Source: Gammaproteobacteria bacterium (GTDB lineage: Bacteria > Pseudomonadota > Gammaproteobacteria > Xanthomonadales > Wenzhouxiangellaceae). From it: a DNA stretch of 64,000 bases. A program made the position numbers and the translations under genes. The notes below the pieces were generated by a model that saw only the letters and a program-made list of their open reading frames with translations, had not been told where the DNA came from and made no database searches. How positions within the stretch are numbered: position 1 is the stretch's first letter; each line of letters begins with the position of its first letter. Shown here piece after piece: positions 19,143 to 51,234 of the stretch. The stretch covers positions 62,001 to 126,000 of the forward strand of contig JAHJQV010000065.1 of the NCBI GenBank assembly GCA_018819105.1, written 5' to 3'.

Positions 19143-19175
19143 CAGTCATACTTTCGTAACATTCATGCCTATAAT
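19143..19175 (+). promoter_or_regulatory. Pho-box-like site and -10 of the phoB promoter
   Basis: CAGTCAT-ACTT-TCGTAAC at 19143-19160 resembles two 7-bp Pho repeats (six of seven and four of seven matches to CTGTCAT/C) with a 4-bp spacer. A perfect TATAAT at 19170-19175 starts 9 bp after it, close to the spacing of PhoB-activated promoters, where the box replaces the -35. Transcription would start near 19182, which excludes the longer phoB frame from 19165. Confidence 0.55.
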
Positions 19176-19209
19176 CTGTAATGATGTTTCCACTTCCGGC
19201 ATCATTATC

Positions 19210-19941: not shown

Positions 19942-20001
19942 ACGCGCTGGCGGTGAGCCGGCGCTGCCGCGCTGCGCAAACGCCAGCGGATCGGCAGCGT
20001 C

Positions 20002-27232: not shown

Positions 27233-30200
27233 TCAGTCCCATTGATACTGCAGGCCCAGACTGACCTCCCGCCCCACCTCGAACAGGCGGGTGATCTCGT
27301 CACCCTGGGTGAACTTGACTTCATCATTGAGCAGGTTCTTGACGCTGAAGCGGTAGGTAAAGCCGTTGTTGTTGTAGCGCGCGACAAAATCCAGCTGATG
27401 AAACTTCTGTTCAAAAATGTCCGGCCGCCCCAAGGTGCCGACCTGGGCGATGCGCTTGCCGGCGCTGTTGTAGAGAATGGTCAGATTCAGCCCATCATCG
27501 ACGCCGGCGTAGCCGAGTTGTGCGTTCATCACATACGGCGACTGTCCCTGCAGAGCACGCACATCGTTGGTCTGGATGGAAGCGGCGACCTCATCCAGTG
27601 TCACCGAGGACGTGATCCAGGCAAAATTGGTGCTGACAAAGACATCCTGCCAGAACCCGCCGAAAAATCCGAAGGTCTTGTAAAACTCAAACTCGATCCC
27701 GGTCAGGTCGGCCGCTTCGGCGTTGCCGAAACTGATCAGTTGGTTGGCACCTGGCTGGATCAGCGCCTCGATCGGGTCGTCAAAGGTCTTGTGGAAGACG
27801 CTGGTGGAGATGAAATCGGTCTCGCTGAAATACTTGTCCAGACGGAAGTCAAAGTGCTGAATGCTGGCCGGCACCAGATCCGGGTTGCCCACCGCAAGGC
27901 GATCCAGAATCGGGTCGATGAAATCAGCCGGTGTCAGCTCACGAAACTGCGGCCGGTTGACCGATTCGGCATAGCTCAGACGCAGCTCGCTATCCCATGG
28001 CAGGGTCACGGTGGCACCGATGGTGGGCAGCAGATCGTCGGTATCAATGATCGAGGCGACCGGAGTGCCGGTGGGATCGAATGGATCGAAGGTGATCACT
28101 TCCTGCTTAAAATCATCCTTGCGCACACCGCCATTCAGGCGCAACCAGCCAAACAGGGTGATGTCGGCACCGAAGTAGAGTGCCTCGTTGGCCAGATCAG
28201 CGGTATAGAAGTCAGAAGCCTGGGTGATGTCATCCAGCACGAAGCCATCCGGATCAATGGTTGCCGGCGTGATGATCTGCTCCAGCGAAGGCAGTCGGCG
28301 CAGATCCGCATCCTGGGCGATCGGTCCGCGAATGGCAAAGCGGAACCTGCGCGTGTCCGATTCCCTATCCTTCTGCACGTTCTGATAGCCCACCTTCAGC
28401 GTACCGTGATAATCGCCGGCCATGTCACCGATGTTGAAACCCACATCCAGATTCAGCGAGTCGCTGCTGTCATCGAGTTCGGTGAAATTGCGCAGATTAC
28501 CGTCCGCGCGCGATGCGAAGATGAACTGGTCTGTCGCCGGATCAAACTCAAACCGGTATGAGCGAAAATCCGGAATGTCGGAGCTGGCGTCCGACAGCGT
28601 GTACTGCCAGTTGAAGGTGGAGCCATTGAGGACGGGGAACATGTGCTCACCGTTGAACTGGAAAGCCTGCAATTCACGCTCTTCGAACTCGATTTCGGTG
28701 ACCCGGGTGATGGTGTCGAATTCAAACGTGGTGCCGGTCTGGATCTCGTTTTCGTCGGTGGTGCTGCGCAGCATCATTGCATTGATGCCGATTTTATGAT
28801 GCTCGCCCAAATCAGCGCCAACACTGGTATATCCGGTCAGGCTGACCTCACGCTGGGTGATGTCAAAGATCAGATCATCGCGCGGGGACAGCTCGCCTTC
28901 ACCGGCGGCGGCAAAATTACGGCGAATCTGGCTGGTGGTCTGCCAATCGTTGGACAGATCCACGGCCGCCTGACCTCCCAGACTCCAACCGTCGAAATCA
29001 AACCGCAAGCCGCCGGACATGCCAAAACTGAAACCGGGCTCAATGGATTGCGGCAGTACGTCGTAGTTGACCGGCAGTGACTCACCGAAGGCCTCAATCT
29101 CGGCATCGGTGAAACCTTCGCCGGTAAACGGATTGAAACGAAATATGCGTCCTTCTGCGGTGGCTTCATCCAGCGCATCAGGCAGCGCGCGGGCACCGTT
29201 GTCGAAACCGAAGATGTCGGTGCTGCTGCCCTCAGAGCGCAGGCCATCCTTGAACGTGGTCAGAGAATTGTATTCACCGTCGATTTCTAGGCGCACAAAA
29301 TTTGATTCCGGGATGGAGCGGGTTTTGATCTGCACCGCGCCGCCACCAAAATCCGGTGGCTGATCATAGGTATAGCCTTTCTGCACCTCGATCACTTCCA
29401 CAATGCTGGTCGGGAACAGATCCAGCGGCACCACGCGCCGGGTCGGATCCGGGCTGGGGACATCGGCCCGATTCAGATACGTGGCCGAATAGCGCTCGCC
29501 CAGACCGCGGATGAAGATGAATTTTCCGCCCACCAGAGTCAGCCCCGTGACCCGGCGCAGGGCTGAAGCCACATCACCATCCCCGGCACGGGAGATCTGT
29601 TCTGCACCGAGAAAATCTGACACCGATTCGGTGGCGCGGCGATCATCCATGATCGAGGCCAGACTGCCGGCCACAAACGGTTCCACCACGACATATTCCG
29701 GCAGCTCCGAGCCGGCCGGTGAAAGTTTCAAGTCCTGGGTGGTGGTGCTGTTGCTGCTGACCGGAATGTTTTCCAGCGTGCGCGTGTTGAAGCGTGCCGC
29801 CAGCACCGACAGCGCGTACTCGCCCGGCGGCAGCGTAAACGCATAGCGTCCTTCCTCATCGGTCAGCTGCTCATCGGCGACACCGCTGACAAACACGCGC
29901 ACGCCGGCGATGCCCTGGCCATCCTCGGATGAGGTGATGCGTCCAGACAAAGTCCCGGGCTCGGCATCAACATCAATGTTCTGCGCCGCAGTGGCTGTGA
30001 GCTTGTCCGGGTTGGAGGTTTCGATATCAACAAAGGGCGGTGATTGGTCGGCAAAAAAGTTGACCAGAATCTGTACCAGCTCATTTTCGGTGAACTGGAA
30101 CTCGCGCACCCAGGGCACCTGCCCCGGCAGGCTGACTTCCAGCTCATACACGCCCGGTGCGATACGCGTGGTCAATCTGCCGGATGCCATGGTTTGGCCC

Positions 30201-30391
30201 ACGCTGGTACCGTTGAGACTAAGCCGGGCATTGGCCTGTGGCTGGGTTTCGGCGAACACGAACAGGCTCAGCTCGGCGGCATCGTCAGCTTCTGCGGAGG
30301 CTGCCTCTGCAGCAATCTGTTGCGCATGGGTGCAGACATGCACAGACAGCAGCAAGGCAGCGAGCAGCAGACGATGACAACTCAGTAACAC
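27233..30391 (-). CDS. TonB-dependent outer-membrane receptor with N-terminal carboxypeptidase-like domain
   Basis: A protein of about 1,052 residues. After a signal peptide come a PEGA-like beta domain, then a carboxypeptidase regulatory-like domain (LSGRITSSEDGQGIAGVRVF). The plug (DVASALRRVTGLTLVGGKFI) and a beta-barrel with the characteristic NLLNDEVKFTQ near the end complete it. I place the start at the GTG at 30391: AGGA lies 7 nt upstream and it directly precedes the signal peptide. The frame is open to 30484, but that overlaps the TPR gene. It is the last gene of the Pho-box-controlled TonB operon. The ligand is probably a phosphorus-containing molecule; this is an inference. Confidence 0.85.
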   Translation of the reverse strand: MLLSCHRLLLAALLLSVHVCTHAQQIAAEAASAEADDAAELSLFVFAETQPQANARLSLNGTSVGQTMASGRLTTRIAPGVYELEVSLPGQVPWVREFQFTENELVQILVNFFADQSPPFVDIETSNPDKLTATAAQNIDVDAEPGTLSGRITSSEDGQGIAGVRVFVSGVADEQLTDEEGRYAFTLPPGEYALSVLAARFNTRTLENIPVSSNSTTTQDLKLSPAGSELPEYVVVEPFVAGSLASIMDDRRATESVSDFLGAEQISRAGDGDVASALRRVTGLTLVGGKFIFIRGLGERYSATYLNRADVPSPDPTRRVVPLDLFPTSIVEVIEVQKGYTYDQPPDFGGGAVQIKTRSIPESNFVRLEIDGEYNSLTTFKDGLRSEGSSTDIFGFDNGARALPDALDEATAEGRIFRFNPFTGEGFTDAEIEAFGESLPVNYDVLPQSIEPGFSFGMSGGLRFDFDGWSLGGQAAVDLSNDWQTTSQIRRNFAAAGEGELSPRDDLIFDITQREVSLTGYTSVGADLGEHHKIGINAMMLRSTTDENEIQTGTTFEFDTITRVTEIEFEERELQAFQFNGEHMFPVLNGSTFNWQYTLSDASSDIPDFRSYRFEFDPATDQFIFASRADGNLRNFTELDDSSDSLNLDVGFNIGDMAGDYHGTLKVGYQNVQKDRESDTRRFRFAIRGPIAQDADLRRLPSLEQIITPATIDPDGFVLDDITQASDFYTADLANEALYFGADITLFGWLRLNGGVRKDDFKQEVITFDPFDPTGTPVASIIDTDDLLPTIGATVTLPWDSELRLSYAESVNRPQFRELTPADFIDPILDRLAVGNPDLVPASIQHFDFRLDKYFSETDFISTSVFHKTFDDPIEALIQPGANQLISFGNAEAADLTGIEFEFYKTFGFFGGFWQDVFVSTNFAWITSSVTLDEVAASIQTNDVRALQGQSPYVMNAQLGYAGVDDGLNLTILYNSAGKRIAQVGTLGRPDIFEQKFHQLDFVARYNNNGFTYRFSVKNLLNDEVKFTQGDEITRLFEVGREVSLGLQYQWD

Positions 30392-30428
30392 AAATATTTT
30401 CCTGAAATGAGTTCGCTGTGATGGCCGC

Positions 30429-31670
30429 TCAGGCGCATTTCCACGGATCATCGGCACATTCCTGCATGGCCCGGCGCACTTCAATTGCCTTGCGGAACAG
30501 ATCCGAACGGGTGAGCAGACTCAAGTGTGTTTCGGCGGCGGCAAAATCGCCGATCTTGAACAGCGCATAGGCCACGGCGTAGCGAATGTCCTCATTGCTG
30601 AGCAGTCCCAGACGCTGCAGATCATTTTCCATGCCGGCAGCCTGTTCATAGCGCAGCAGCTGGATGTACAGCGCCAGGCGCTGCTTCAGCTTGGTTTTCT
30701 GATCACGGATTTCACTGTTCAGGGTCAGCGCCCGGTACACCTGACCGGCGCGGCGATACAGCTCGCTGGCCTCGGCCATCAGACTGTTGTCCAGCAGGGC
30801 CGCCTGATAGATGATGTCGGCGGCGGCATGCAGCTTGCCGGCATCGATGTAGCTGTGCGCCAGCACCTTGCTGACATCGGTGTTTTCGGGATATTTCAGC
30901 TGGGCAGCTTCGAGAAAGCCCAGTGCCTCGTCCACCGCGCCGCTCTGACGCAGGGCATTGCCGATGGCGATGTAATCGTCCACACTGACATCGTCATTGT
31001 CCAGATAACTGCGTCCCAGGCTGGCCGCCTGCTGATACAGCTGCAGCTCGATCAGATAAAACACCTTGCGGCGGGTGAACGAGCGGTCGGCGGTAAAAAT
31101 GCGCTCGGCCTGATCCAGTATGGCCAGCGCCTCGACCTGCTTGCCCAACAGCCAGTTGGCCTGCGCTTTCAGGTGATACACCGAAGCGATGCGCTCGACC
31201 GCCGCACCGGCGCGCGCCACGGCATCGATGGCAGCCTGGTAGTCCTGCAGGGAAAAATTGATCTGTGCCAGCGTCAGATACAGCGACGACTCATCGCGCC
31301 CGGCCGCCAGCGCCTGGTTGAAGGCATCACGGGCCGGCTCCAGCTGTCCCAGCCGCTGGCTTATGGTGCCGCGCAAAACCCAGTAGCGGCCCAGTTCACT
31401 GCGCGCCTTTTCCGCTGCCTGTCGGTCTTTGTCCTTCATGTCAGCGCTCACCGGCACGGCAGCGGCCTGCAGCGCATCGGGATCCAGATTGTCCAGCGCA
31501 CGCTGGGCGCGATCGAGGTTGCCATCACGCAGCATCAATGCCGCCACGTCCAGATAATTGACCTCGTCGGCCTGATCCTGTGCCGACAAGGGCGTGACCA
31601 GCAAGCAGCACAGCAGCAGTAGCACACTGATGCTGCGTGAGGACGTCTTGATCTGCATCGGACCGTTCAT
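30429..31670 (-). CDS. periplasmic TPR-repeat protein of the TonB cluster
   Basis: A 413-residue protein with a signal peptide (residues 12-30, cleaved after PLSA) and tandem tetratricopeptide repeats over most of its length, for example ARDAFNQALAAG and EALGFLEAAQLKYPENTDV. Such TPR proteins are regular members of DUF3450-ExbB-ExbB-ExbD-TonB operons and are thought to connect the energy module with outer-membrane receptors. It lies 29 bp from tonB and 37 bp from the proposed receptor start. Confidence 0.83.
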   Translation of the reverse strand: MNGPMQIKTSSRSISVLLLLCCLLVTPLSAQDQADEVNYLDVAALMLRDGNLDRAQRALDNLDPDALQAAAVPVSADMKDKDRQAAEKARSELGRYWVLRGTISQRLGQLEPARDAFNQALAAGRDESSLYLTLAQINFSLQDYQAAIDAVARAGAAVERIASVYHLKAQANWLLGKQVEALAILDQAERIFTADRSFTRRKVFYLIELQLYQQAASLGRSYLDNDDVSVDDYIAIGNALRQSGAVDEALGFLEAAQLKYPENTDVSKVLAHSYIDAGKLHAAADIIYQAALLDNSLMAEASELYRRAGQVYRALTLNSEIRDQKTKLKQRLALYIQLLRYEQAAGMENDLQRLGLLSNEDIRYAVAYALFKIGDFAAAETHLSLLTRSDLFRKAIEVRRAMQECADDPWKCA

Positions 31671-31699
31671 GGCTGTGGGCTCAGTGACGCTGTCTGTGC

Positions 31700-32344
31700 T
31701 CAGGACAGGTCAAAGCGCACGCGCTGCTTGGCCCAGGAGCGCACGGTTTTGCCCTGATATTCTGCCGGCTCGAACTTCCAGCTGTTGATGCCGGCCAGTA
31801 CGGCCTGATCAAACACGCCCTCAGGCACCGACTCGACGATCTCGACCTGCTCAATGTCACCGGTGATGCCGATCAGCAGCGACAGCACCACGTAGCCCTC
31901 GGTGCCTTTGGCCTTGGCCCGCGGCGGATACTGCAGCGGTGACTGATAGGTGGCCCGTGGCGGCTGATCGACGGTGTCGTCGGTCAGTATTACATTGTCG
32001 GCACCGCCGAGCAGTTCATCGTTCAAACCCTCCAGTTCCGACGCATCAAAGCCGGGCAGACCAAAATCGATCCCACTCAGTGCACTGCCCAGACTGGCCA
32101 GCGGATTGGGCGGGCTTTTCACCGGCTGCCGTGGCTTCGGCTTGGGTTTGGGTTTTGGCTTGGGCTTGTCCTGCGGTGGCTTCTTGCGCTCGAACGCCAC
32201 CTGCGAAGCGGCGTCGTACTTTTCGTTCTGCGGGGTTTTTGCCAACTGGTTGATCACCACAATGGTGCCCAGTACCAGTACCGTGCCCAGCACCATGCTC
32301 AGCACACCGGCGCCAATGCGGCGCATTTTTTCACGCTGTTTCAT
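31700..32344 (-). CDS. tonB: TonB family energy-transducing protein
   Basis: A 214-residue TonB. One transmembrane helix at about residues 12-32 is followed by a periplasmic linker with KPKPKPKPKPKP. The C-terminal TonB domain has QYPPRAKAKGTEGYVVLSL and INSWKFEPAEYQG, which match the strands contacting receptor TonB boxes. It starts within the exbD stop (TGATG). It probably serves the receptor encoded downstream, and perhaps others. Confidence 0.92.
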   Translation of the reverse strand: MKQREKMRRIGAGVLSMVLGTVLVLGTIVVINQLAKTPQNEKYDAASQVAFERKKPPQDKPKPKPKPKPKPRQPVKSPPNPLASLGSALSGIDFGLPGFDASELEGLNDELLGGADNVILTDDTVDQPPRATYQSPLQYPPRAKAKGTEGYVVLSLLIGITGDIEQVEIVESVPEGVFDQAVLAGINSWKFEPAEYQGKTVRSWAKQRVRFDLS

Positions 32345-32754
32345 CAGCCTGCTCCTGCTTCCTGTTCGGTGGCCACGCCGACATCCTCGGCTCCGGCCAG
32401 TCGCGCCTGGTCGACCACTTCGACCAGACGTCCAGAGGGCACGCCCTCATCGGTGACCACCAGCACGGATTTGTTGGTGCTGGTGGAAATCAGATCACGC
32501 ACCCGGCTTTGGATCACCCAGACCTGCACCGGCTCGCCGTCCAGGTAAACATCACCCTGGTTGTCGATGTAGAGACGAATGGACTTGGTCGATGCGGTGG
32601 TCTGGCTCTGCGCCGACGGGCGGTTCAGATCCAGCTTCATGTCCTTGACAAAGGTGGTGCTGACCATGAAAAAGATCAGCAGGATGAACACCATATCGAT
32701 CAGTGGCGAGATATTGATGTCCTGGACGGTGTCCTTGCGTTCACGATAGCGCAT
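32344..32754 (-). CDS. exbD: ExbD/TolR proton-channel subunit
   Basis: A 136-residue protein with an N-terminal helix containing INISPLIDMVFILLIFFMVS. Asp20 is the protonatable residue essential for ExbD, and a periplasmic ExbD domain follows. The ATG at 32754 is chosen because a longer open frame to 32934 runs through an AT-rich spacer with no family similarity. It forms the motor with the ExbB proteins that energise TonB. Confidence 0.9.
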   Translation of the reverse strand: MRYRERKDTVQDINISPLIDMVFILLIFFMVSTTFVKDMKLDLNRPSAQSQTTASTKSIRLYIDNQGDVYLDGEPVQVWVIQSRVRDLISTSTNKSVLVVTDEGVPSGRLVEVVDQARLAGAEDVGVATEQEAGAG

Positions 32755-32893
32755 GTCAGTTGGCCTCACTGGTTCGCATTTCTCGCCGGGATTCGAGCTG
32801 CTTAGCCAGATTTGGTCTGGGCTCGAACAGGACGTAGAGTACTGATTTAACTTTGTTAAAAAATATTTTGAGTTGTTGAGAGCCAAGCATTTT
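32755..32893 (-). other. AT-rich, hairpin-containing spacer between exbB and exbD
   Basis: This 139-bp gap interrupts an operon whose other core genes overlap or touch. It contains TTTAAC-TTT-GTTAAA (32846-32860). A second hairpin has CGAGC (32794-32798) pairing with GCTCG (32821-32825) around an inner CCAGA/TCTGG stem. Possible roles are transcript processing, differential expression of exbB and exbD, or a remnant of an insertion. Confidence 0.4.
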
Positions 32894-33511
32894 TTAATCT
32901 TCCTTTCCGCCTGGTGAGGAATGCGGACTGGCACACAAAATGTCTTTGAGCTGGGCCAGCTCGATCAGCAGATCACGCTCCTGCCGATGCAGGATGCCGT
33001 TGACGACCATGCCGGGTATTGCCACCGCCAGCCCCATCTGGGTGGTGAACAGCGCCTGTGAAATGCCCCCGGCGATGCCGCCGGACTGGGAAAACAGGCT
33101 CATGTCGGCCAGCGAGTCGAAGGTTTCGATCATGCCCACCACGGTGCCCAGCAGGCCCAGCAGCGGCGCGGTCATGACAATGGTTGTGATCAGCGTGTTG
33201 AATTTGCGCAATTCGCTTTCTTCCTCGGCGAAAGCTTCATCCAGATAGCGGCGCAGATTTGGCAGCTGCCGCCGGCGCAGCTTGAGGCCTTTCTTCAGCG
33301 CCCGGTGCAGCACACCGCGATCGGATGGCATGATGCCCTGTTCGGCGCGCTCGACCAGCACGCGCACCCCGCGCTTGCTGCCGCGCCGCATCGCCATCAT
33401 GCGATAGCCGATGGCATACCAGAGTACGATGGTGGCCAGCAGCAATGGCGGCATGACATAACCGCCCGCCGCAAAGAAGAACAGCAGTTCATTGAGCATC
33501 CCGCCACCCAT
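32894..33511 (-). CDS. exbB: MotA/TolQ/ExbB proton-channel protein, short form
   Basis: A 205-residue ExbB with three membrane helices: residues about 15-37, 105-130 and 145-170. Conserved blocks are APLLGLLGTVVGMIETFDSL and GISQALFTTQMGLAVAIPGM, typical of MotA/TolQ/ExbB proteins. It starts 1 bp before the stop of the larger ExbB-like gene. Two different ExbB proteins in one operon is the usual arrangement for DUF3450-associated TonB systems. Confidence 0.9.
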   Translation of the reverse strand: MGGGMLNELLFFFAAGGYVMPPLLLATIVLWYAIGYRMMAMRRGSKRGVRVLVERAEQGIMPSDRGVLHRALKKGLKLRRRQLPNLRRYLDEAFAEEESELRKFNTLITTIVMTAPLLGLLGTVVGMIETFDSLADMSLFSQSGGIAGGISQALFTTQMGLAVAIPGMVVNGILHRQERDLLIELAQLKDILCASPHSSPGGKED

Positions 33512-33512
33512 A

Positions 33513-34979
33513 TCAGTTGCTGGGATGCCGCGACTGTTCCAGGTTGATCACGCGCAATGCGGCCTTTTCCATGTTGTCCTTGATGCTCTCCGCCCAGCCT
33601 GACAGCAGGTTGCCAAAAATCAGCGCCGGAATCGCCACGATCAGACCGATTTCGGTGGTGATCAGGGCGATGGAAATGCCGCCGGACAGCAGTTTGGGAT
33701 CACCGGTGCCAAATTCGGTGATGATGTCAAACGTGGTGATCATGCCGGTCACGGTGCCGAGCAGACCGAGCAGCGGGGCCACTGCAGCAATCACCATGAT
33801 GATTGAGCCAAAGCGATTGAGATGCGCGCTTTCGTGCAGGATGGCCTCCGAAACAATGTCTTCGACATGTTCGCGATCACGATCCAGATTGCGGATGGTC
33901 GCGGCCATGACACGGCCGGTGGCACCGCCATACTGCTGACAGGTATGCAGTGCCTGATCGCGCTTGCCCTGCTCCAGATCGGCTCGGGTCTCGGCCAGCA
34001 CCTTGTCGGTGGAACTGCCGGCTCGCTGCAGGAAGATGCTGCGCAGAATCACCATCAGCAATGCAATCAGACCCAGGGCGACAATCACCCAGGCGATGGT
34101 GCCACCATCCTGGATGGTGCCGAGGATGCCGCGATCCTCGCTCTCTTCAATCGGCTTGTTCAGTGACTCATACAGAAAGATCGGCAGATTGTCCAGACGC
34201 TGACCACCGACCAGCGCTTTGGCGGCCTCGGTCGCTGGCTCGCGCCACAGTTTGTAGCGGCCCTCACCGGCCGGTGCCAGCACGCCGGCGTGCTCACCAC
34301 TGACGCCGTAGGCGGCAATGTTGCCCAGCTTCAGAATGCTGCCACTCACTTCGGTGCCGTCGAGCAGGTAGAACTTGCCGTCGGTGCGGTAGACACTGCC
34401 GGCATCGCTGAGCATGCGCCCGGCGGCATCAAACAGGGTGATGATCTTGTCTTCATCCGGCAGGCTGGCGAAGGCAGCCTTGTCGAGTTCGATGTTCTGC
34501 TGTTCCAGCGTGCTGCCGGCCTGCTGGTAGGTGGCTTCCAGCGTGCTGCGGTTTTCCTCGATGGTGGCGATGTTGCGATCAGCCTCGGTAAGCAGATTGT
34601 TGAGGCGGTCACCGCGCGACTGCAATCCGGCGATGGCCCCCTGCAGACGGTCGATGTCGGTTTCCGCCTGGTTGCCTTCCTGCGTGGCGCGGGCACGAAA
34701 TGCCTGCAAGCGCTCTTGCAGCTCGGCGCGTTGTGCAATCAGGAAGGCATATTCTTTCTCATAGGCCTGCTGCAGTTGATCCAGCGCGCGTTGCGGCTCA
34801 GGTTCAGGTATCGGCTCCACTGCTGCCTGTTCTGCGGTGGCCGCTGTGCCGGCATCTGTGGTCTGTGCAGACTCATCGGCAGCGTCGTCCTGGGCCTGCA
34901 ATACAGGGGCCAGGATCGCCAGTATCAGCAGGAACAGGCTGAAACTGTGCGCACTGCGCAGCAGACTGGTGCGTTTCAT
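33513..34979 (-). CDS. MotA/TolQ/ExbB proton-channel protein with large periplasmic coiled-coil domain
   Basis: A 488-residue fusion-like ExbB. It has a signal peptide (1-29), an acidic linker, and a coiled coil at about residues 65-165 rich in Glu, Gln and Arg. A beta-containing periplasmic domain ends near 270. A standard ExbB module with three helices completes it, including APLLGLLGTVTGMITTFDII. The N-terminal part resembles DUF3450 in pattern, and it lies next to a DUF3450 gene that it overlaps by 4 bp. It probably spans the periplasm and couples the proton channel to partners near the peptidoglycan. Confidence 0.88.
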   Translation of the reverse strand: MKRTSLLRSAHSFSLFLLILAILAPVLQAQDDAADESAQTTDAGTAATAEQAAVEPIPEPEPQRALDQLQQAYEKEYAFLIAQRAELQERLQAFRARATQEGNQAETDIDRLQGAIAGLQSRGDRLNNLLTEADRNIATIEENRSTLEATYQQAGSTLEQQNIELDKAAFASLPDEDKIITLFDAAGRMLSDAGSVYRTDGKFYLLDGTEVSGSILKLGNIAAYGVSGEHAGVLAPAGEGRYKLWREPATEAAKALVGGQRLDNLPIFLYESLNKPIEESEDRGILGTIQDGGTIAWVIVALGLIALLMVILRSIFLQRAGSSTDKVLAETRADLEQGKRDQALHTCQQYGGATGRVMAATIRNLDRDREHVEDIVSEAILHESAHLNRFGSIIMVIAAVAPLLGLLGTVTGMITTFDIITEFGTGDPKLLSGGISIALITTEIGLIVAIPALIFGNLLSGWAESIKDNMEKAALRVINLEQSRHPSN

Positions 34980-35839
34980 AATCCGGCTCCGGTCAATGCT
35001 GCGCTGTCCGTGCTGGCACGCCTGGGTGGCAGCGTGTTGGGCAGTTCAAAGTAACCCTGGCGGATTTGCTTGCGCAGCGAATCAAACAGTTCGGCAATCT
35101 GCTTGCGATCCTCACTGTCGGTGGCCTTGACCCAACGCCAGCTGCTGCCCTGCGATGAACCGCCGGACGCCTGTGCCATGCCGAATTCGCCATCCCTGGT
35201 CTGAAAATACATGGCGATGCTGCCCAGCTTGGCCACGTCCACCAGCAGCGATTCACCGTCCACGCTGATGGTCTGAGAATAAATGGCATTTTCCCGCGAC
35301 AGCCGCAGTTCGTCTTCAACAAAAGCCCACAGGCGGTTGATGGAGCGTTGCGGATTGGCCACCCCGGCCTCGAGTTCGGTGATCACGGTCTGCAGAGCCT
35401 GCAGACGCTCCTCACGCTTGAAGGGAAACTGTGCGCTGACCTGTTCGCGCAGGCCGGCCGCCACCTGCAGCGCCACCGTCTGCAGGGTCTGGGCGTCGGC
35501 CCCGGCGTTCTCGGCGCGTTCGCGCAGCTCGGCCAGCTCGGTTTCGAGCTGCTCGATGCGTGTCTGCTCGCGATCCTGGGCGGCCTCCAGCTCGGTTTTC
35601 TGTGCCGACAGATAGGCCATGCGGCCCTTGTGCTCCTCGCGCTCGATGTCCAGCTCACCCTGCAGATCCTCGACCTCACCGCGCAGCTGAATCAGCCGTT
35701 GCGCCAGATCGCTGACGGCAGCATTGCCATCGGCAGACTGTGCTGCCAGTTGCAGGGGCATGCTTAGGCATGGCAATACTATGAAAAACAATAATTTATG
35801 ACGCCAGAACTTGGGGCCATGGGGGCTGTGTGTGGACAT
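34976..35839 (-). CDS. DUF3450 periplasmic coiled-coil protein, first gene of the TonB operon
   Basis: A 287-residue secreted protein. The signal peptide is near residues 14-34 (LLFFIVLPCLSMPLQLAAQ). A long coiled coil at about 40-120 includes LIQLRGEVEDLQGELDIE, and a globular C-terminus contains INRLWAFVEDELRLSRENA and RKQIRQGYFELP. DUF3450 proteins form operons with ExbB, ExbD and TonB and have no established mechanism. Upstream is a minus-strand Pho-box-like repeat with a -10 10 bp downstream, so the operon is likely PhoB-activated. Confidence 0.87.
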   Translation of the reverse strand: MSTHSPHGPKFWRHKLLFFIVLPCLSMPLQLAAQSADGNAAVSDLAQRLIQLRGEVEDLQGELDIEREEHKGRMAYLSAQKTELEAAQDREQTRIEQLETELAELRERAENAGADAQTLQTVALQVAAGLREQVSAQFPFKREERLQALQTVITELEAGVANPQRSINRLWAFVEDELRLSRENAIYSQTISVDGESLLVDVAKLGSIAMYFQTRDGEFGMAQASGGSSQGSSWRWVKATDSEDRKQIAELFDSLRKQIRQGYFELPNTLPPRRASTDSAALTGAGL

Positions 35840-35871
35840 CGGCGACGGCGCTATATGGATGACTGCACACT

Positions 35872-35905
35872 ATGCTAGCCACTCAATATGAAGCTATTAT
35901 GACAA
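35872..35905 (-). promoter_or_regulatory. candidate Pho box and -10 for the TonB operon
   Basis: Read on the minus strand, TTGTCAT-AATA-GCTTCAT (35905-35888) gives two Pho-type repeats (six of seven and four of seven matches) with a 4-bp spacer. TAGCAT (35877-35872) follows 10 bp later and matches four of six -10 positions. The DUF3450 ATG lies about 26 nt downstream of the expected start. Confidence 0.55.
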
Positions 35906-35928
35906 TTCGGATGCAGATACAAAGCCCC

Positions 35929-35946
35929 CTGTCACAAGAGTGTCAT
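35929..35946 (+). promoter_or_regulatory. Pho box upstream of the beta-helix gene
   Basis: CTGTCAC-AAGA-GTGTCAT: 7-bp repeats with a 4-bp spacer matching the PhoB consensus at six of seven or better in each half. The best -10 is TCAAAT at 35954-35959, four of six matches and 7 bp downstream, which is weaker than at the other Pho sites. It lies 23 bp from the minus-strand Pho box, so the two promoters are divergent. Confidence 0.7.
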
Positions 35947-36040
35947 CTTATCTTCAAATTACTGCAACATATGGGCTCTAAGATGATGCGTTGCGATCAA
36001 GGTTTCGCAAACACGCTAACAGCAATCTCCAAGGAGTCCC

Positions 36041-37783
36041 ATGATGAAACGCAAGATTTTACACAGCGTCATTGCGATGTGTGCGGGCATTGCCGGCACG
36101 GCCAGCGCTCTGACCATTGATGAACAGTTTTCCGGCCAGTACGTTGAGACCGGCGGCACTTCTAACCGCGGTGTCAATCTCCAGATGTTCAAGATCGGTC
36201 CTGAGCTTTTCGCTGCATTCGTGACCGGATTCACCTACGATGCCGATGGCAATCAAATCTGGTTTGCCGGCACAGATACCTCTGTTGTACCTGGCGATGT
36301 ACGCATCAATGTTGAGGCACGCCAGTTCAATGGTGGTCAGCCGTTTGGTGGCGATCTGGTTGCCGCCAGTGACAACCCGGTTGTTGCTTCAATCGATATG
36401 CAGATCAACACCTGCAACAGTGCAACACTGAATATTGCCCCGGTTGGAGATGCCAACTTTCCTGAGGTGACTGATGCAGCACTGAACCGTGGCAGCATTG
36501 TGTTTGGCCCAGATCGCTGTGCTTATCAGAGTGAATTCACCGCTTGTCCGGCATTTTCAGATGGTTCCGCTGAGGCTGTTACCGGCATCGAACGCTCCTG
36601 CATCATCTCCGGCACGTTCAATCAGGACATCACCCTGACCAATGACACCACCTGGGTCATGAACGGCCCGGTGTTCATCGGCAATGCCTCCGGCGTTGGC
36701 AACAGCAACTCGGTCACCATTGAGCCGGGTACGCGCATTGTCGCCTCTGGTGCAGCCGCACGCGAAGCCTTTATTGTGGCCCGCGGTGCCAAGATCTTTG
36801 CCGACGGTCAGCCGTTCGCGCCGATCGTGTTCAGCAGCATCCGTCCGACCAGCGAAGCCGAGCCAGGCGACTTTGGTGGTGTCATCATCAGCGGTGCCGC
36901 ACCGGCCAACGACTGCCCGCAGGGCGACTGCGAAGGTGAAGGCAACAGCGGCCAGTTCGGCGGTGATGATCCGTTCGATTCCAGCGGTCGCATCGTCTAT
37001 GTGCGCATCCAGTTCGGTGGCGACAGCTTCAACCCGGAAGACCAGCTGAACGGCCTGGCCCTGCAGGCCACCGGTGCCGGCACTGTGGTCAAGTACCTTC
37101 AGGTGCATGCCAACACCGACGATGGCGTGGAATTCTTCGGTGGCACAACCTCCGCATCTTACGTGGTACTGACCGACATCGAAGATGACAGCATCGACTG
37201 GACCTTCGGCTGGCAGGGCGACCTGCAGCACGCGCTGGTACAGGCCGGCCCGATTGGCGACAACGGCATTGAAGCCGACAACAACAGCGGCGGCAATGAA
37301 CTGTCACCGCGTTCACAGCCGCGCATCGCCAATGTGTCATTCATCGGCAACGACGAAGTCGACGTCGGCAACCTGCTGCGTGCCGGCACCGGTGCCAACC
37401 TGACCAACAACGTGGTGGCTGGATATGGTGACGGCTGTCTCGACATCGACGACGATTCCACTTTCACCCAGTCCGGCACCCCGGGCAGCCTGAACGGCAC
37501 CCTGACAGTCGAAAACACCGTGCTGGATTGCACCACCAACTTCATTGAAGATGGCGGTGAGCCGTTTGGCATCGAGGAATTCTTCACCAGCCAGGATGGC
37601 AACGAGACCCTCAACGTGACCTTCGTCAATGGCGTGTTCCCGCAGCCTGGTGCCAGCTACCTGAGCGGCAAGGTGATGGATCCTGCCAAGTTCAACGGTC
37701 TGGATCTGGTCGACTATGCCGGCGCATTCAGCTCGGAAGCAGCCGACTGGACCGCAGGCTGGACCGACTTCATCAACAACTGA
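36041..37783 (+). CDS. secreted beta-helix-like protein of unknown function, predicted Pho regulon member
   Basis: A 580-residue protein with a clear signal peptide cleaved after ASA (residue 23). Residues 25-140 form a small beta domain with FTYDADGNQIWFAGT. The remainder is rich in Gly, Asn and Asp with repeated strands such as VFIGNASGVGNSNSVTIEPG and NTDDGVEFFGGTTSASYVVL, suggesting a right-handed parallel beta-helix. Four or more acidic clusters may bind calcium. AAGGAG at 36031-36036 supports initiation at 36041 or, better spaced, ATG 36044. Its Pho box and its position opposite the TonB operon suggest capture or processing of a phosphorus source. I recognise no catalytic motif. Confidence 0.72.
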   Translation: MMKRKILHSVIAMCAGIAGTASALTIDEQFSGQYVETGGTSNRGVNLQMFKIGPELFAAFVTGFTYDADGNQIWFAGTDTSVVPGDVRINVEARQFNGGQPFGGDLVAASDNPVVASIDMQINTCNSATLNIAPVGDANFPEVTDAALNRGSIVFGPDRCAYQSEFTACPAFSDGSAEAVTGIERSCIISGTFNQDITLTNDTTWVMNGPVFIGNASGVGNSNSVTIEPGTRIVASGAAAREAFIVARGAKIFADGQPFAPIVFSSIRPTSEAEPGDFGGVIISGAAPANDCPQGDCEGEGNSGQFGGDDPFDSSGRIVYVRIQFGGDSFNPEDQLNGLALQATGAGTVVKYLQVHANTDDGVEFFGGTTSASYVVLTDIEDDSIDWTFGWQGDLQHALVQAGPIGDNGIEADNNSGGNELSPRSQPRIANVSFIGNDEVDVGNLLRAGTGANLTNNVVAGYGDGCLDIDDDSTFTQSGTPGSLNGTLTVENTVLDCTTNFIEDGGEPFGIEEFFTSQDGNETLNVTFVNGVFPQPGASYLSGKVMDPAKFNGLDLVDYAGAFSSEAADWTAGWTDFINN

Positions 37784-37892: not shown

Positions 37893-38597
37893 TTACTGCG
37901 GATTGAACAGGTCATCCAGCGGCAGATGCCGCACATCCCGGCCGTGTACCAGATAGATCACGTGCTCGGCGATGTTCTGGCTGCGATCACCGATGCGCTC
38001 CAGCGCCCTGGCCGCCCACATCAATGACATCGCGGCCTGCACGCTGGCCGGATCTTCGGCCATGAAACGCATGGCTTCGGTGGTGATCAGTTTGTACTTG
38101 GCATCCACGCGCTCGTCCTGGCGCGCCACCGCCAGCGCGGCCTGATCGTCCAGTCGGGCGAACGCGTCCAGCACGTCGTGCAGCATGCCCTGCACCAGCT
38201 CGCCCATGTGCCGCAATTCGGCGTTGATTTCCACCGGCAGCACGCTGGCACGCTCGGCTGCCGACATTTTCGCCACGCGCTTGGACTCATCACCCATGCG
38301 CTCAAGATCGGCGATGGTCTTGAACACACCGATGATAAAGCGCAGATCGCTGGCCGCCGGCTGGCGCCTGGCCACCACATCGATGCAGGCGGCATCAATC
38401 TCCATTTCCATGCGATTGATGCCGGCATCGCCGCGCTTGACCTCGGCGGCCAGCGCCTGATCGTTGTCGAGCATGGCGCGAATCGCTTTGTCCAGCTGGG
38501 TTTCCAGCAGCCCCCCCATGCGCAGCACCTGGCTGCGTATGGTCTCAAGCTCATCGTTGAATTCGCGCGATATGTGCTGGCTGTGCCGGTTCTGCAT
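37893..38597 (-). CDS. phoU: phosphate signalling protein PhoU
   Basis: A 234-residue all-helical protein made of two PhoU repeats. The first contains MRMGGLLETQLDKAIRAM-like helices and ERMGDESKRVAKMS. The second contains ALERIGDRSQNIAEHVIYLV. The E(R/M)xGD pattern in each repeat is the metal-binding hallmark. PhoU connects the Pst transporter to PhoR and shuts off the Pho regulon in high phosphate. It ends the pstC-pstA-pstB-phoU operon, 19 bp after pstB. Confidence 0.95.
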   Translation of the reverse strand: MQNRHSQHISREFNDELETIRSQVLRMGGLLETQLDKAIRAMLDNDQALAAEVKRGDAGINRMEMEIDAACIDVVARRQPAASDLRFIIGVFKTIADLERMGDESKRVAKMSAAERASVLPVEINAELRHMGELVQGMLHDVLDAFARLDDQAALAVARQDERVDAKYKLITTEAMRFMAEDPASVQAAMSLMWAARALERIGDRSQNIAEHVIYLVHGRDVRHLPLDDLFNPQ

Positions 38598-38616
38598 GTT
38601 GCCTCAGTGGATTCTT

Positions 38617-39432
38617 TCAGCCATAACGGCCGGTGATGTAATCTTCGGTACGGCGCTGTTTGGGCGTGGTGAACAGCTCACCGGTGGCGGAGAATTCGAC
38701 CAGTTCGCCGCCATCCATAAATGCCGTAAAATCCGACACCCGCGCCGCCTGCTGCATGTTGTGGGTGACGATCAGTATCGTATAGTCGATCTTCAAACTG
38801 GCAATCAGTTCCTCCAGCTTGAGCATGGAAATCGGGTCCAGATTGGAAGCCGGCTCATCCAGTAGCAGAATCTTTGGCTGCACCGCCAGCGCCCTGGCAA
38901 TGACCAGCCGCTGCTGTTGTCCGCTGGACAGCTCCAGTGCGCTGTTGTGCAGGCGATCACGCACCTCATCCCACAGCGCGGCCGCCTGCAGCGCCTGCCG
39001 AACCTGCTCCTGCAGTTCTACGCGCGCGGTCATGCCGAGCAGGCGCAGGCCATAGGCAACATTGTCAAAGATGCTCTTCGGAAACGGATTTGGCCGCTGG
39101 AACACCATGCCGACCTCGCGCCGCAATGACACCACATCCTCATCCGGCGCATAAATGTCGCGACCGTTGATCATCACCTCGCCGTTGATGCGACAGCGCT
39201 CGTCCAGATCATTGAGACGGTTGAGACAGCGCAGCAAGGTCGATTTGCCACAACCCGACGGGCCGATCAGCGCGGTGACATGGCGTTCACGCAGATACAG
39301 ATTGACGTCATGCAGCACCTGACGCTGTCGATACCAGACGCTGAGATCACGGATATTGACCACCACATCATCATGTTCGGCTTGCAGCAGTGAAGCCTGC
39401 TGTTGTTCGCCGTTGTGTTTTTTCGCATGCAT
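38617..39432 (-). CDS. pstB: phosphate ABC transporter ATP-binding protein PstB
   Basis: A 271-residue ATPase. Walker A is GPSGCGKST (57-65), the Q-loop region is [20 protein letters not shown], the signature is LSSGQQQ (168-174), and Walker B is ILLLDEP (to 194). The PNPFP stretch and the (S)IFDN loop are specific to PstB. It is preceded by a 69-bp gap from pstA and drives phosphate import through PstCA. Confidence 0.96.
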
Positions 39433-39501
39433 GGCTCATTGTAACGATGATTGATGAAAGCAGTAAGACAGGCACGATGGGCTGCAAGCACCGCCACGGT
39501 A

Positions 39502-41112
39502 TCAGCCTGGTGCCGTGCTGTAGCGGCTGCGTAAACGCGCCCGCAGGCGGAATGCGAACAGGTTCAGCACCACCACCAGCAGCAGCAGCACCAGCGTGGC
39601 CGCATAGGCCATGGCAATGGCTGTGTCTGACTGCCCCGATTGCATGGCCAGATCATACACCTGATAACCCAGGTGCATGAACGGTTGCTGCAGATGCAGA
39701 AACGGCGGCTCGGCATCCAGCAAAGGCTGCTGGGTATAGGCCACTGCGCCCAGCAGCAACAGCGGCGCCACCTCACCGGCAGCGCGGGCGATGGCCAGAA
39801 TCAGGCCGGTCAGCAGCGCCGGTCTTGCCGCCATCACCACCACGCCCCAGACCATCTCGGTGCGGGTGGCACCCAGCGCCAGCGATGCCAGTCGCAGATC
39901 GGCGGGAATTCTGGACAGGCCTTCTTCGGTGGCGGCAATCACCACCGGCATGGTCAGCAATGCCAGCGCCAGTGCGGCCCACAACAGACCACCGGTGCCG
40001 AACGTGGGCAACGGCAACTGCTCGGCAAACAGCAGCGCATCAATGCGCCCTCCGGCACCGTATACGAACACCCCCAGCACGAACACACCGTACACCACCC
40101 CCGGCACGCCGGCCAGATTACTGATGGCAGCGCGCAGCAGGCCGGTGACCCAGTTCTGTGCGGCGTACTCATGCAGATACACGGCAGTCAGAATCGCCAC
40201 CGGCACCAGCAGCACCGACATCACCAGCACCAGCAGCACCGTACCCAGTATGGCTGGCAGAATGCCGGGTACAGCATCATCCGGGCCATGACTGAGAAAC
40301 AGCCAGGCATTGTGCAGTGCCTGCTGCGCGGCGGCGGCCAGCGACAGCCGGTTCGGCAACAGTATACGGTCGATGTCGGCAGCGGGCAGCTGCATGCTGC
40401 TGCCGTCATGCAGCTCCAGCACCAGTGACCATGCCTCCTGTTGCCCGGTTTTGAGTTGCCGCCACTGCTGCTCGATGCGATCCAGCTGCAGCCCGCGATG
40501 CTCGCTGTCGTCCGCGGCTGTGGCCGTCAGCGTCAGCTCGCCGGTGTCTGCATCGGCGACAACTGCTGCAGCGGTCTGCTCAGACGCGGCAGCGGGCACC
40601 ATGCGCACCCACTGCAGCGGGTATCCGGCGACCGTGCTGGCGTCGCTCAGGGTCAGCAACGCCAGGCTGTGTGGCCTGCCACGGCGCACGATATCGGTCT
40701 CCGCGACCGCCTGCAGCTTCCACACTGGCCGCGATACAGCGGCCGCTTGCCCGCTACCTGGCAACTGCTGCATCTGCTGGTAACGAATCAGCACCGCAGC
40801 ACGCATCGCCGACGACTCTGCACTGGCGCTGTCCGCTGCGGCATCAGGCAACGGAATCTGCACTGTTTCCCCGCCATAGGCAAACAGCCGTTGCGACTGA
40901 CCATTGTCTGCGGCGGCGTCCCGGATCACCCATTCCTCGATCGGTTGCGGCCAGAAATACTGTGCCGAGGACACCAGAATCAGCAGCAGCAACGCCAGCA
41001 CCAGCAGTGCAGCGATGCTCAGCGCAAACAGGCTGTACCAGTGCCAGGCACTGCCACTGCGCCACCAGGACAGCATGGCGGACAGGGTGCTGCGAAATGC
41101 GGACTGCTTCAT
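39502..41112 (-). CDS. pstA: phosphate ABC transporter permease PstA, enlarged form
   Basis: A 536-residue permease, against about 296 for E. coli PstA. After the first membrane helix (about 24-50) a roughly 220-residue periplasmic insertion precedes the usual five-helix BPD_transp_1 domain. The EAA loop, GLSRIPADLRLASLALGATR, identifies it as a Pst-type permease. The 4-bp overlap with pstC (ATGA) couples the two subunits. The large periplasmic insertion is a known variant in proteobacteria, but its function is unclear. Confidence 0.92.
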   Translation of the reverse strand: MKQSAFRSTLSAMLSWWRSGSAWHWYSLFALSIAALLVLALLLLILVSSAQYFWPQPIEEWVIRDAAADNGQSQRLFAYGGETVQIPLPDAAADSASAESSAMRAAVLIRYQQMQQLPGSGQAAAVSRPVWKLQAVAETDIVRRGRPHSLALLTLSDASTVAGYPLQWVRMVPAAASEQTAAAVVADADTGELTLTATAADDSEHRGLQLDRIEQQWRQLKTGQQEAWSLVLELHDGSSMQLPAADIDRILLPNRLSLAAAAQQALHNAWLFLSHGPDDAVPGILPAILGTVLLVLVMSVLLVPVAILTAVYLHEYAAQNWVTGLLRAAISNLAGVPGVVYGVFVLGVFVYGAGGRIDALLFAEQLPLPTFGTGGLLWAALALALLTMPVVIAATEEGLSRIPADLRLASLALGATRTEMVWGVVVMAARPALLTGLILAIARAAGEVAPLLLLGAVAYTQQPLLDAEPPFLHLQQPFMHLGYQVYDLAMQSGQSDTAIAMAYAATLVLLLLVVVLNLFAFRLRARLRSRYSTAPG

Positions 41113-43451
41113 GACTGGTAGCGGCGACGCAGGCGGGTGCGGAAAACTTCCGCCAGGCTGTTCATGACAAAGGTAAACCCGAACAGCACCAGCGCAGCAA
41201 ACAGCAGCACACGAAAATGCACCGAGTCCGGGCTGGCCTCGGACATTTCGCTGGCCAGGGTCGGGGCAATGGCCTGCAGGCCACGCAGCAGCGAGGATTC
41301 CATGATCGGCGTATTGCTGCTCACCATCAGCACGATCATGGTTTCGCCCAGCGCACGACCAAAGCCGATCAGCACCGCCGCCAGAATGCCGGCGCTGGCA
41401 GCCGGCAGCATGACCTGCCAGACCGTCTGCCAGCGACTTGCCCCCAGTGCCAGCGATGCCAGTTGCAGTCGTCTTGGCACCGCAGCCAGGGCGTCTTCGA
41501 CCAGCGCGAAGATGCTCGGGGCTATGCCCAGACCCAGCACCAGTCCCACCAGCAGGGCGTTGTGCAGGTCATAGGTCCAGCCGGCGGCGGTTTCCAGCCA
41601 GGCGCTGAAGCTGCCGCCAAACCAGACCTGCTGCAACAGCATGCCCAGGGCAAACAGCAGCAGCAGTTGCAAGGCAAACAAAAGGTAGGGGAAAACACCA
41701 CGAAATGCGGCCGCCACGCGCAGCTTCAGCGTGCTGCTCCAGTAATACCCGGTCAGCGCCAGCGTCAGCGGCATCAGCAGCAGCAACAGCCACAGGCTTA
41801 GCAGGTGTTGCTGCAGCAGTGGTGCCAGCCACAGCGCACCGATGAAACCCAGTATCACCGTGGGCAATGATTCCAGCATCTCGACCATCGGCTTGATGCG
41901 CTCGCGCCAGCGCTGCGGCAGCAACAGAGCGGTGTACACGGCCCCCAGCAGCGACAGTGGCAAGGCGATCAGCATGCCCAGCAACGCTGCCTTGAAGGTG
42001 CCCGACAGCAATGGCAGCAGACTCAGCCTGGCCCGCGCTTGCGAGCCCGGCTGCGGCTCCCACTGCCAGCTTGCCTGGGCCTCACCCTGATAATGCTGCG
42101 GCCACCACAGGGTCTGCATGTCCACCACCGGGTCGGCGGCCAACTGCCAGCTGTTGACGCGCAGCTTGCCGGCAACATCGCTCTGCGCCAGCAACAGCTG
42201 CGCTGTGTCGATCGCCAGCATTGCCTTGGACTCGCGTGATGCGACCTGGTCCAGACTGAATTGCCATACCGGATCCGGTCTGCCCAGATAGAACAGCTGC
42301 AGCAGATCAGCGCCGACACAGGCCAGCCAGCCCGACTTTGGGTCCACGGCAATGGCCGCAAGCTCGTTACCAGCACAAGCATAGCGATGCACGAGCTGTG
42401 GCTGGTCTGCCTCAGCACGGGTGAATTCACTGATGTGACCGTCCGCATGCGCCACCAGCACCCCGGCCTGGTTCAGGCCGATGAGCGCAACCACGGCAGC
42501 ATCCGGCGGTGCATGAAGCGGCTCTGCCTGCGCAGCAGCATCGCTGCCGACATGCAGCAACATGCCGCTGCTCAGTCCCAGGTAGGCACCGCCGGTCTGA
42601 TCCGGCAGCAGGCTGGTGATGTCTGCGGCAAGCAGGCTGGCGTTGTCTGTCTGCTCAGCGGCGGTGCCTGCCGCCGGCAGGCGAATGCTGTCCAGCGGCA
42701 ACTGTCGCAACAGGCGCAGCTGTGGCGCGGCATCAGCGGTCAGCCTGAGCGCATGCCAGCGCAATTCGGTCTGCGCCGCCTGTTGCCACAGGGTCAGCAG
42801 TCGCAGGCGATCGTCCGTGCCCGCCAGTGCGGCATGCAGCAGCTGTGTACTGCTGGATGGCTGTTCGCGGCGCCGCTCGGCCATGAGTTCAGGGAATTCA
42901 GCCCAGTGCGCGCGCAGCTCGACCCGGTCGTCTGCTGTGTTTTCCGGCTGTGTGGGGTCGTTGCTAGCAGCCACTGATGCCGGCGCAGCAGACCGTGACC
43001 ACTGCAGGACTCCCACACCGCTCACTGCATCGAGCAGCAGCAGGCGCTGCTCAGTCCATTGCAGAATGTGTGCATCGCGCGCAGCCGACAGCTTTGCCCG
43101 CACCTCCTCATCGGCGAGATCCACCGGCAGTTGCGCACCGTTGTCCAGATCCAGCGCGACCAGTTCTCCGGCCTCGAACAGCAGCGCGGTGCGACCATTG
43201 CGCACGTCCACGTCCAGCGTCCCGTCCATCGCCGAGGGGGCCACCGCCGAGGGTGTCCAGGACAGACCGCCGATGGTCAATGCGTTGACCGTCTGTGGTG
43301 CCTGCGAGCGAAACAGCTGCGCCACAGACAACAGCAGGTAGCCCAGCAACAGCATCGCCGTCAACAGCACCAGACCGGCCGCCGCCGCCGCCGCCAGACT
43401 GGCAGCGCGATCAATGCGCAGACGGCGATTAAGCGATGCGTTCAAAGTCAA
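41109..43451 (-). CDS. pstC: phosphate ABC transporter permease PstC, enlarged form
   Basis: A permease of about 780 residues, against about 319 in E. coli. After a first helix near residues 18-45 there is a roughly 400-residue periplasmic beta-rich region, including blocks that look like WD40/propeller blades (SGWLACVGADLLQLFYLG). A normal permease domain follows with EAA loop LAAVPRRLQLASLALGASRW. The open frame reaches 43559, but the Pho promoter lies at 43464-43497, so I prefer the TTG at 43451, preceded by GGAAG. TTG at 43445 is an alternative. The inserted domain may replace or supplement PstS-type binding. Confidence 0.88.
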   Translation of the reverse strand: MTLNASLNRRLRIDRAASLAAAAAAGLVLLTAMLLLGYLLLSVAQLFRSQAPQTVNALTIGGLSWTPSAVAPSAMDGTLDVDVRNGRTALLFEAGELVALDLDNGAQLPVDLADEEVRAKLSAARDAHILQWTEQRLLLLDAVSGVGVLQWSRSAAPASVAASNDPTQPENTADDRVELRAHWAEFPELMAERRREQPSSSTQLLHAALAGTDDRLRLLTLWQQAAQTELRWHALRLTADAAPQLRLLRQLPLDSIRLPAAGTAAEQTDNASLLAADITSLLPDQTGGAYLGLSSGMLLHVGSDAAAQAEPLHAPPDAAVVALIGLNQAGVLVAHADGHISEFTRAEADQPQLVHRYACAGNELAAIAVDPKSGWLACVGADLLQLFYLGRPDPVWQFSLDQVASRESKAMLAIDTAQLLLAQSDVAGKLRVNSWQLAADPVVDMQTLWWPQHYQGEAQASWQWEPQPGSQARARLSLLPLLSGTFKAALLGMLIALPLSLLGAVYTALLLPQRWRERIKPMVEMLESLPTVILGFIGALWLAPLLQQHLLSLWLLLLLMPLTLALTGYYWSSTLKLRVAAAFRGVFPYLLFALQLLLLFALGMLLQQVWFGGSFSAWLETAAGWTYDLHNALLVGLVLGLGIAPSIFALVEDALAAVPRRLQLASLALGASRWQTVWQVMLPAASAGILAAVLIGFGRALGETMIVLMVSSNTPIMESSLLRGLQAIAPTLASEMSEASPDSVHFRVLLFAALVLFGFTFVMNSLAEVFRTRLRRRYQS

Positions 43452-43463
43452 AGCAAACTTCCC

Positions 43464-43497
43464 AATATGCCGCAACACAATGACAGAATCATGACAG
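43464..43497 (-). promoter_or_regulatory. Pho box and -10 for pstCAB-phoU
   Basis: On the minus strand, CTGTCAT-GATT-CTGTCAT (43497-43480) is a perfect pair of Pho repeats with a 4-bp spacer. CATATT (43469-43464), four of six -10 matches, follows after 10 bp. Transcription would begin near 43457, upstream of only the shorter PstC frames. Confidence 0.82.
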
Positions 43498-43736
43498 TGC
43501 GCATGTCCTGTGTCCGACTTGCAATGGCGGCGCAAACTGACCAAACTAGGCGCGTCCAAAGGCTATCACATTCCACCAGACAGCGGATGAACGAGCTATG
43601 CACATGACCGGCACGTCCAGTTGCACCGCGCCATCCGGCCCGTTGACGGCAACGTCAGCAGCCCTCGCCGAGTGGTGTGACCTGCTCTGCGCACAGCCTG
43701 ACGTCAGGCTGCGGCAGCGCATGATGGGGTCAGCAT

Positions 43737-50712: not shown

Positions 50713-50823
50713 GGTGGCTCCCCGAGCGTGTCAACGGCTCGTATTGATGACAGGTTGATGACATTGCCGATAGTTTAGCATGGCAACCCGGCGTCGCAGC
50801 GTCTGGCGGGATGGCGATGTCGA

Positions 50824-51204: not shown

Positions 51205-51234
51205 GACCGTTGCAGCGGTGCCTTCGCTGTCGCG

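Follow-up and report, generated by a model that had tools for sequence, protein, structure and literature searches.

A probable PhoB-switched TonB module joining an ElpS-family protein and its receptor to a Ttp-type energiser in the Wenzhouxiangellaceae

In a 64,000-nucleotide stretch of contig JAHJQV010000065.1 (assembly GCA_018819105.1, positions 62,001 to 126,000 of the forward strand; hereafter the window) from a gammaproteobacterium of the Wenzhouxiangellaceae, we identified a seven-gene TonB operon and a divergent gene for a secreted beta-helix protein, which together may be read, with a probability of roughly three in four, as an outer-membrane acquisition module for phosphorus switched by PhoB. 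As judged from sequence, regulation of the module by the Pho system is well supported, and its role as an importer of phosphorus is probable. All six Ttp components as defined in PMC6957404, TtpB (DUF3450), TtpC, ExbB, ExbD, TonB and TtpD (TPR), are present within the operon. The same set of genes had been given in a preliminary description of this DNA, and its families and coordinates were all confirmed. The module and its Pho boxes are as follows.

27233-30484 (-): TonB-dependent receptor, last gene of the operon, with CarboxypepD_reg, Plug and beta-barrel domains and a weak PEGA match
30429-31670 (-): TPR protein, TtpD-like partner, its position matching TtpD in PMC6957404
31700-32344 (-): TonB, with a TonB_C domain
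32344-32934 (-): ExbD
32894-33511 (-): short ExbB (MotA_ExbB)
33513-34979 (-): long ExbB with N-terminal extension, TtpC-like by family match and TtpC tree
34976-35839 (-): DUF3450 protein, TtpB-like, first gene of the operon (PF11932, 100.3 bits)
35888-35905 (-): TTGTCAT-AATA-GCTTCAT, the operon's Pho box, with a score of 15.4; the ATG of DUF3450 follows after about 48 bp
35929-35946 (+): Pho box of the secreted gene, CTGTCAC-AAGA-GTGTCAT, score 20.0, 94 bp before the ATG
36041-37783 (+): secreted parallel beta-helix protein of the ElpS/FI-FII family, divergent from the operon

The receptor carries both plug and beta-barrel (PF07715 and PF00593, above cut-off), and the true start of ExbD is probably downstream of the GTG chosen by the open-reading-frame finder. 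The Pho box was defined as two 7-bp direct repeats of the CTGTCAT type, 11 bp apart, and scored with an E. coli-style matrix that was fixed in advance and has a maximum of 27.3. Both boxes, noticed already in the preliminary description, share one intergenic region of 201 bp, one standing before each transcript, and both are imperfect when taken alone: the score of 20.0 is reached in about 1% of random 360-bp stretches of the window. A simple mismatch search of the window found no excess of Pho-like sites as a class (9 sites versus 6.75 expected), and such mismatch counts, being near chance, were not used as evidence. The perfect box of the pstC promoter (CTGTCAT-GATT-CTGTCAT, 43480-43497, minus strand, score 25.7) served as an internal positive control. 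Strong boxes of the genome precede pstC, a gene for a PstS-OmpA fusion, a Pit-family transporter gene, a second TonB-receptor-like gene and a choice-of-anchor I gene, and since strong boxes thus stand before genes of phosphate type, the matrix works in this organism. The two boxes of the module stand above chance because they are conserved in orthologues.

Orthologues were delimited with a profile of the window-type DUF3450 protein, because a Pfam family search alone mixes both DUF3450 clades. The profile separated two populations without overlap, one at 224 bits or more and one, comprising all other DUF3450 proteins, at 82 bits or less, the sole exception being one fragment of a clade member. 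DUF3450 proteins of at least 224 bits were found in 12 of 369 gammaproteobacterial genomes, and the window type is carried by 47 of 101 relatives, from genus to order. In the TtpC tree a branch supported at 100% sets all 64 clade members, including one of Bdellovibrionota and one of Myxococcota, apart from the others, so that both the tree and the profile (224 versus 82 bits) place the window system apart from the DUF3450 systems of Vibrio chromosome 2. On all contigs of sufficient length the genes keep the one order DUF3450-ttpC-exbB-exbD-tonB-ttpD-receptor. The genome under study itself has a second, ordinary DUF3450 system (contig C19, locus L001), which lacks a good box (score 7.8). One other genome (G323) holds two copies of the whole module with equal DUF3450 scores (L117 and L118), one by pst genes and the other with a beta-helix gene.

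The preliminary description had proposed a search for the box pairs in orthologous loci, their absence counting against Pho control. In the 350 bp upstream of DUF3450, on the sense strand, a box of score 12 or more was found for 40 of the 64 clade operons versus 3 of 44 other DUF3450 operons, which served as controls, counts that are not readable as probabilities because related genomes are not independent samples. At a score of 15 or more the numbers were 27/64 and 3/44; one of the three control positives (L126) is a misfiled fragment of the window-type clade. Dinucleotide shuffles reached 12 in 2.5-3.1% and 15 in about 0.5% of cases. When one best value was taken for each family, a procedure that favours families with many members, a box was present in 19 of 28 clade families versus 1 of 33 control families, and this lone control family (f140, Alteromonas-type) carries the ElpS pair described below. 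In a test free of any matrix, over all 4-mers and spacings, the strongest signal was GTCA repeated at 11 bp, found in 21 of 64 clade regions (2.6 at other spacings) versus 1 of 43 in the controls. The beta-helix gene is likewise preceded by its own box in 37 of 60 loci (shuffles, 2.3%). The proposed check on orthologous loci thus spoke for Pho control and did not refute it.

The neighbourhood points in the same direction. The module lies between phoBR-pstS-ppk-ppx and pstCAB-phoU, a placement that annotation of the flanks bore out.

19165-21393 (+): phoB and phoR, the presumed regulator pair, needed for a Pho regulon
37893-43559 (-): pstC-pstA-pstB-phoU, inner-membrane phosphate uptake and Pho signalling

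The left flank holds phoB, phoR, a pstS-like gene, ppk, ppx and a tRNA-synt_2 (epmA-like) gene, and the right flank phoU, pstB, pstA and pstC, then PhoU_div and Pit. As had been suggested, DUF3450-TonB operons beside pst/pho genes were sought elsewhere: within the fetched flanks such genes were found at 17 of 66 clade loci versus 1 of 51 control loci, a control set that includes plasmid loci picked for having the ElpS-receptor pair, and the single positive control locus, from Alteromonas, itself has this pair. At loci of Hahella, Halothiobacillaceae and related bacteria a PhoX-domain-like gene and pstS come after the receptor (the PhoX-domain-like match in L050, E 5e-5, is just short of the Pfam cut-off). 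Several apparent neighbour clusters were discarded as likely antisense frames of GC-rich loci. On Alteromonas pBGP9, phoB-phoR-pstS-2OG oxygenase-ElpS-receptor-DUF3450-TonB stand in a single row; boxes lie at the promoters of phoB, ElpS and DUF3450. Taken together, the conserved boxes and the pst/pho neighbours support the predicted Pho control of the whole module, its own TonB and the secreted gene included.

The secreted protein has a signal-peptide-like N-terminus. It matched no Pfam or NCBIfam model, and sequence searches of solved structures found no relative of it or of the receptor. The AlphaFold2 model is a right-handed parallel beta-helix (mean predicted local distance difference test score 65, with the core mostly at 80-90; predicted template modelling score 0.68), for which Foldseek gave no match under E 0.001; its likeness to the alginate epimerase AlgG (Z about 24) names the fold only and no function. 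Six acidic residues, D360, D361, E364, D382, D386 and E411, are invariant over 63 sequences, D383 is nearly so, and the invariant residues are spaced about one helix turn apart. The DDxxD motif with an aspartate one turn earlier is reminiscent of the calcium site in family 9 pectate lyase, which we take as a lead only. The protein is 32-36% identical to proteins of the alphaproteobacteria Indioceanicola and Sphingomonas, where the order protein-receptor-gspN-gspD, the latter two being type II secretion genes, is that of Caulobacter CC0170-CC0171-gsp (PMC2996285). On account of this homology to copies at the ElpS syntenic position, and not by alignment to Caulobacter ElpS, we file it in the ElpS/FI-FII-FIII family, a membership missed by the preliminary description although the family is already linked to phosphate starvation (PMC2996285, PMC8115612). 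By a simple pattern, the lipobox is absent from the window protein and present in 14 of 60 relatives. The ElpS-like protein of Alteromonas and Pseudoalteromonas, of about 1,360 amino acids (L208, 11364-15434; L209, 15701-19789), has a long extra N-terminal part as compared with the window copy.

The pairing of the beta-helix gene with the receptor is near-obligate. Among plasmid records, 21 hold the beta-helix protein and 19 the receptor type, and homologues stand beside a window-like receptor in Pseudoalteromonas, Alteromonas, Indioceanicola, Sphingomonas, Hymenobacter, Aureibacter and Parabacteroides; a Marinobacter plasmid copy does not. At eight loci of the control clade (Alteromonas, four of Pseudoalteromonas, and the genomes G139, G025 and G210) the pair adjoins a TonB2-like energiser, and among control loci the receptor type of the window was found in all eight with the beta-helix gene and in no others. 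Boxes at the ElpS or DUF3450 promoters are present in five of these (L208, L209, L219, L250 and L258); L223 has no box, and L225 and L251 have off-strand boxes only. Since the pair occurs both with the window clade and with TonB2-like energisers, which are separate branches of the TtpC tree, it was apparently joined to a Ttp energiser at least twice, and the module thus assembled more than once.

We propose that, upon phosphate starvation, PhoB would bind both divergent boxes, as their conservation suggests. One transcript would then supply the receptor and its dedicated Ttp-type energiser, driven, as in the known families, by the proton motive force, and the other an ElpS-family beta-helix protein that may be exported to the cell surface or the medium, by analogy with ElpS. 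This protein might capture or process a phosphorus-bearing ligand for its paired receptor, given the near-constant company of the two genes, and phosphate freed in the periplasm would be taken in by PstSCAB, the genes of which adjoin the module. As cargo, phosphorus in an organic or polymeric compound, or phosphate in a bound form, is most likely, and the receptor would bind it at low concentration; phytate, nucleic acid or another organophosphate, named in the preliminary description, may be candidates. A bolder proposal, which we consider possible and rather doubtful, is that of a phosphorus-specific TonB machine with a private motor, assembled independently at least twice from the ElpS-receptor pair and separate Ttp branches; the ElpS partner would then be a metal-dependent enzyme or capture protein of a new kind, acting on a phosphorus-rich polymer that cannot pass through any porin.

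Several observations weigh against an importer of phosphorus under PhoB. The operon's own box is weak (15.4 of 27.3), about one-third of the clade loci have no box above 12, none was found in the Myxococcota and Bdellovibrionota loci or in L044, and 49 of the 66 clade loci have no pst/pho gene in the fetched flanks. The module in the window includes no phosphatase, nuclease or phytase gene, so that an organophosphate cargo is a supposition, and the receptor gene of Caulobacter CC0171 was reported as not phosphate-regulated (PMC2996285).

Pho regulation could also serve the import of a glycan, if starved cells shift to another diet or remodel their envelope, and if the beta-helix protein, as a lyase or binder of polysaccharide, feeds sugar and not phosphorus to the receptor. 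Its fold is indeed like those of alginate epimerases, pectate lyases and tailspikes (Z 20-24), a structural likeness of FI-FIII to polygalacturonase was noted by Lidbury et al. (PMC8115612), and the invariant acidic ladder looks like a metal-binding or active site. This fold is, however, common to many functions, and the recurrent neighbours are pst/pho, pstS and the PhoX-like gene, with no recurrent glycan gene in the loci examined, so that we regard a glycan cargo as unlikely. The six-component energiser, being that of the siderophore importer TonB2 (PMC6957404), would suit an iron or siderophore system that merely adjoins pho genes. Against this stand the separation of the window clade from the Vibrio TonB2 type, the retention of the ordinary DUF3450 system in the same genome, the conservation of Pho boxes even in clade loci far from pho genes, and the lack of enrichment of Fur boxes in the clade (by simple consensus match, 1 of 62 at 13 or more matches versus 2.7% of shuffles); an iron system is thus very improbable. 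That the receptor and beta-helix protein sense phosphorus at the surface rather than import it, as Le Blastier et al. considered for CC0171 (PMC2996285), is less probable still: the receptor has no signalling domain, among its neighbours in the window no gene for a sigma or anti-sigma factor was recognised, and ElpS was still produced after deletion of cc0171 (PMC2996285). An outer-membrane module for phosphorus remains our preferred reading.

Other candidate members of the Pho regulon were noted in the same genome. At C7:78225-78253 (L008, L016) three stacked Pho repeats precede a TonB-receptor-like gene (CarboxypepD_reg, Plug, OMP_b-brl_4), a second outer-membrane protein that probably belongs to the regulon as well, judging from these repeats. 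Four stacked box-like repeats at C7:97856-97895 (L017) precede the choice-of-anchor I family gene, whose product may be a secreted enzyme belonging to the Pho regulon, and at C9:16902-16930 (L019) tandem box-like repeats lie at the start of a gene whose product joins a PstS-like binding protein to an OmpA domain. Within the window, a one-mismatch Pho box, ATGTCATCAACCTGTCAT (50747-50764, minus strand), lies 35 bp before a penicillin-amidase family gene of 961 amino acids (47827-50712) that is weakly PvdQ-like; a phosphate-controlled acylase would be unusual. A 767-residue protein at 50830-53133 (+) has no Pfam or NCBIfam match, and in L161 and L163 a sequence related to it is found close to pit and phoUdiv. 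No SusD model, as for a SusD-type binding lipoprotein, was among the Pfam matches of the module or its window neighbours.

Among known systems, TonB2 and TonB3 of Vibrio have the same six energiser components as the window module (PMC6957404), which differs from them in its separate clade, in Pho boxes instead of Fur control and in its ElpS-type receptor pair. Siderophore uptake by TonB2 of Vibrio vulnificus depends on both TtpB, its DUF3450 protein, and TtpD, its TPR protein (PMC6957404), and the preliminary statement that no substrate had been assigned to DUF3450 TonB modules is therefore wrong. Vibrio TonB3 has its receptor within the operon and no known substrate (PMC6957404). We considered it as the same system; the DUF3450 loci examined from Vibrio (not V. 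vulnificus TonB3 itself), Photobacterium, Salinivibrio and Aeromonas lack the ElpS-receptor pair and, with Photobacterium as the exception, have no box.

PhoB regulation of TonB receptors was published for Caulobacter (PMC11208175), and the energiser set exbB2-exbD2-tonB4 of P. aeruginosa (PUMA3 regulon), encoded close to the type II secretion system of an alkaline phosphatase, has a promoter that requires PhoB (PMC4971064, PMC7035377); the idea of Pho-controlled TonB transport therefore has precedent. Unlike the window module, the latter set needs the sigma factor VreI, has no Ttp proteins listed and includes no beta-barrel TonB receptor. Caulobacter ElpS (CC0170) is a low-phosphate-induced surface lipoprotein encoded beside the receptor CC0171 (PMC2996285), so that apparently the same family is paired with a TonB receptor in both cases, with low-phosphate induction there and a Pho box here, but the Caulobacter pair stands beside a type II secretion system, has no dedicated TonB operon described and includes an ElpS with a lipobox (PMC2996285). 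In Flavobacterium, FI, FII and FIII, which are 31-36% identical to ElpS, are surface lipoproteins made only at low phosphate; FI is encoded beside a low-phosphate receptor and FII beside another, within the phoBR operon (PMC8115612). PUSIII and PUSIV thus share with the window a TonB transporter, there low-phosphate-only, and an ElpS-related surface protein, and differ in belonging to another phylum and in having no energiser genes listed in the cluster; PUSIII also has other exported proteins and a putative phosphodiesterase (PMC8115612).

In Flavobacterium, proteins of the ElpS type rank among those that phosphate starvation induces most strongly, and starved Caulobacter secretes them in large amounts. 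Here such a protein is tied to one receptor type, one energiser and a conserved switch across many gammaproteobacterial families. With this, an orphan protein becomes part of a defined import machine that genetics can test, and it would seem that these bacteria take phosphorus across the outer membrane actively and not only through porins. A partial literature search found no paper on an ElpS-receptor-Ttp module or its Pho boxes. What is new, as compared with the systems above, is the joining of a full Ttp-type energiser to the ElpS-receptor pair under Pho boxes.

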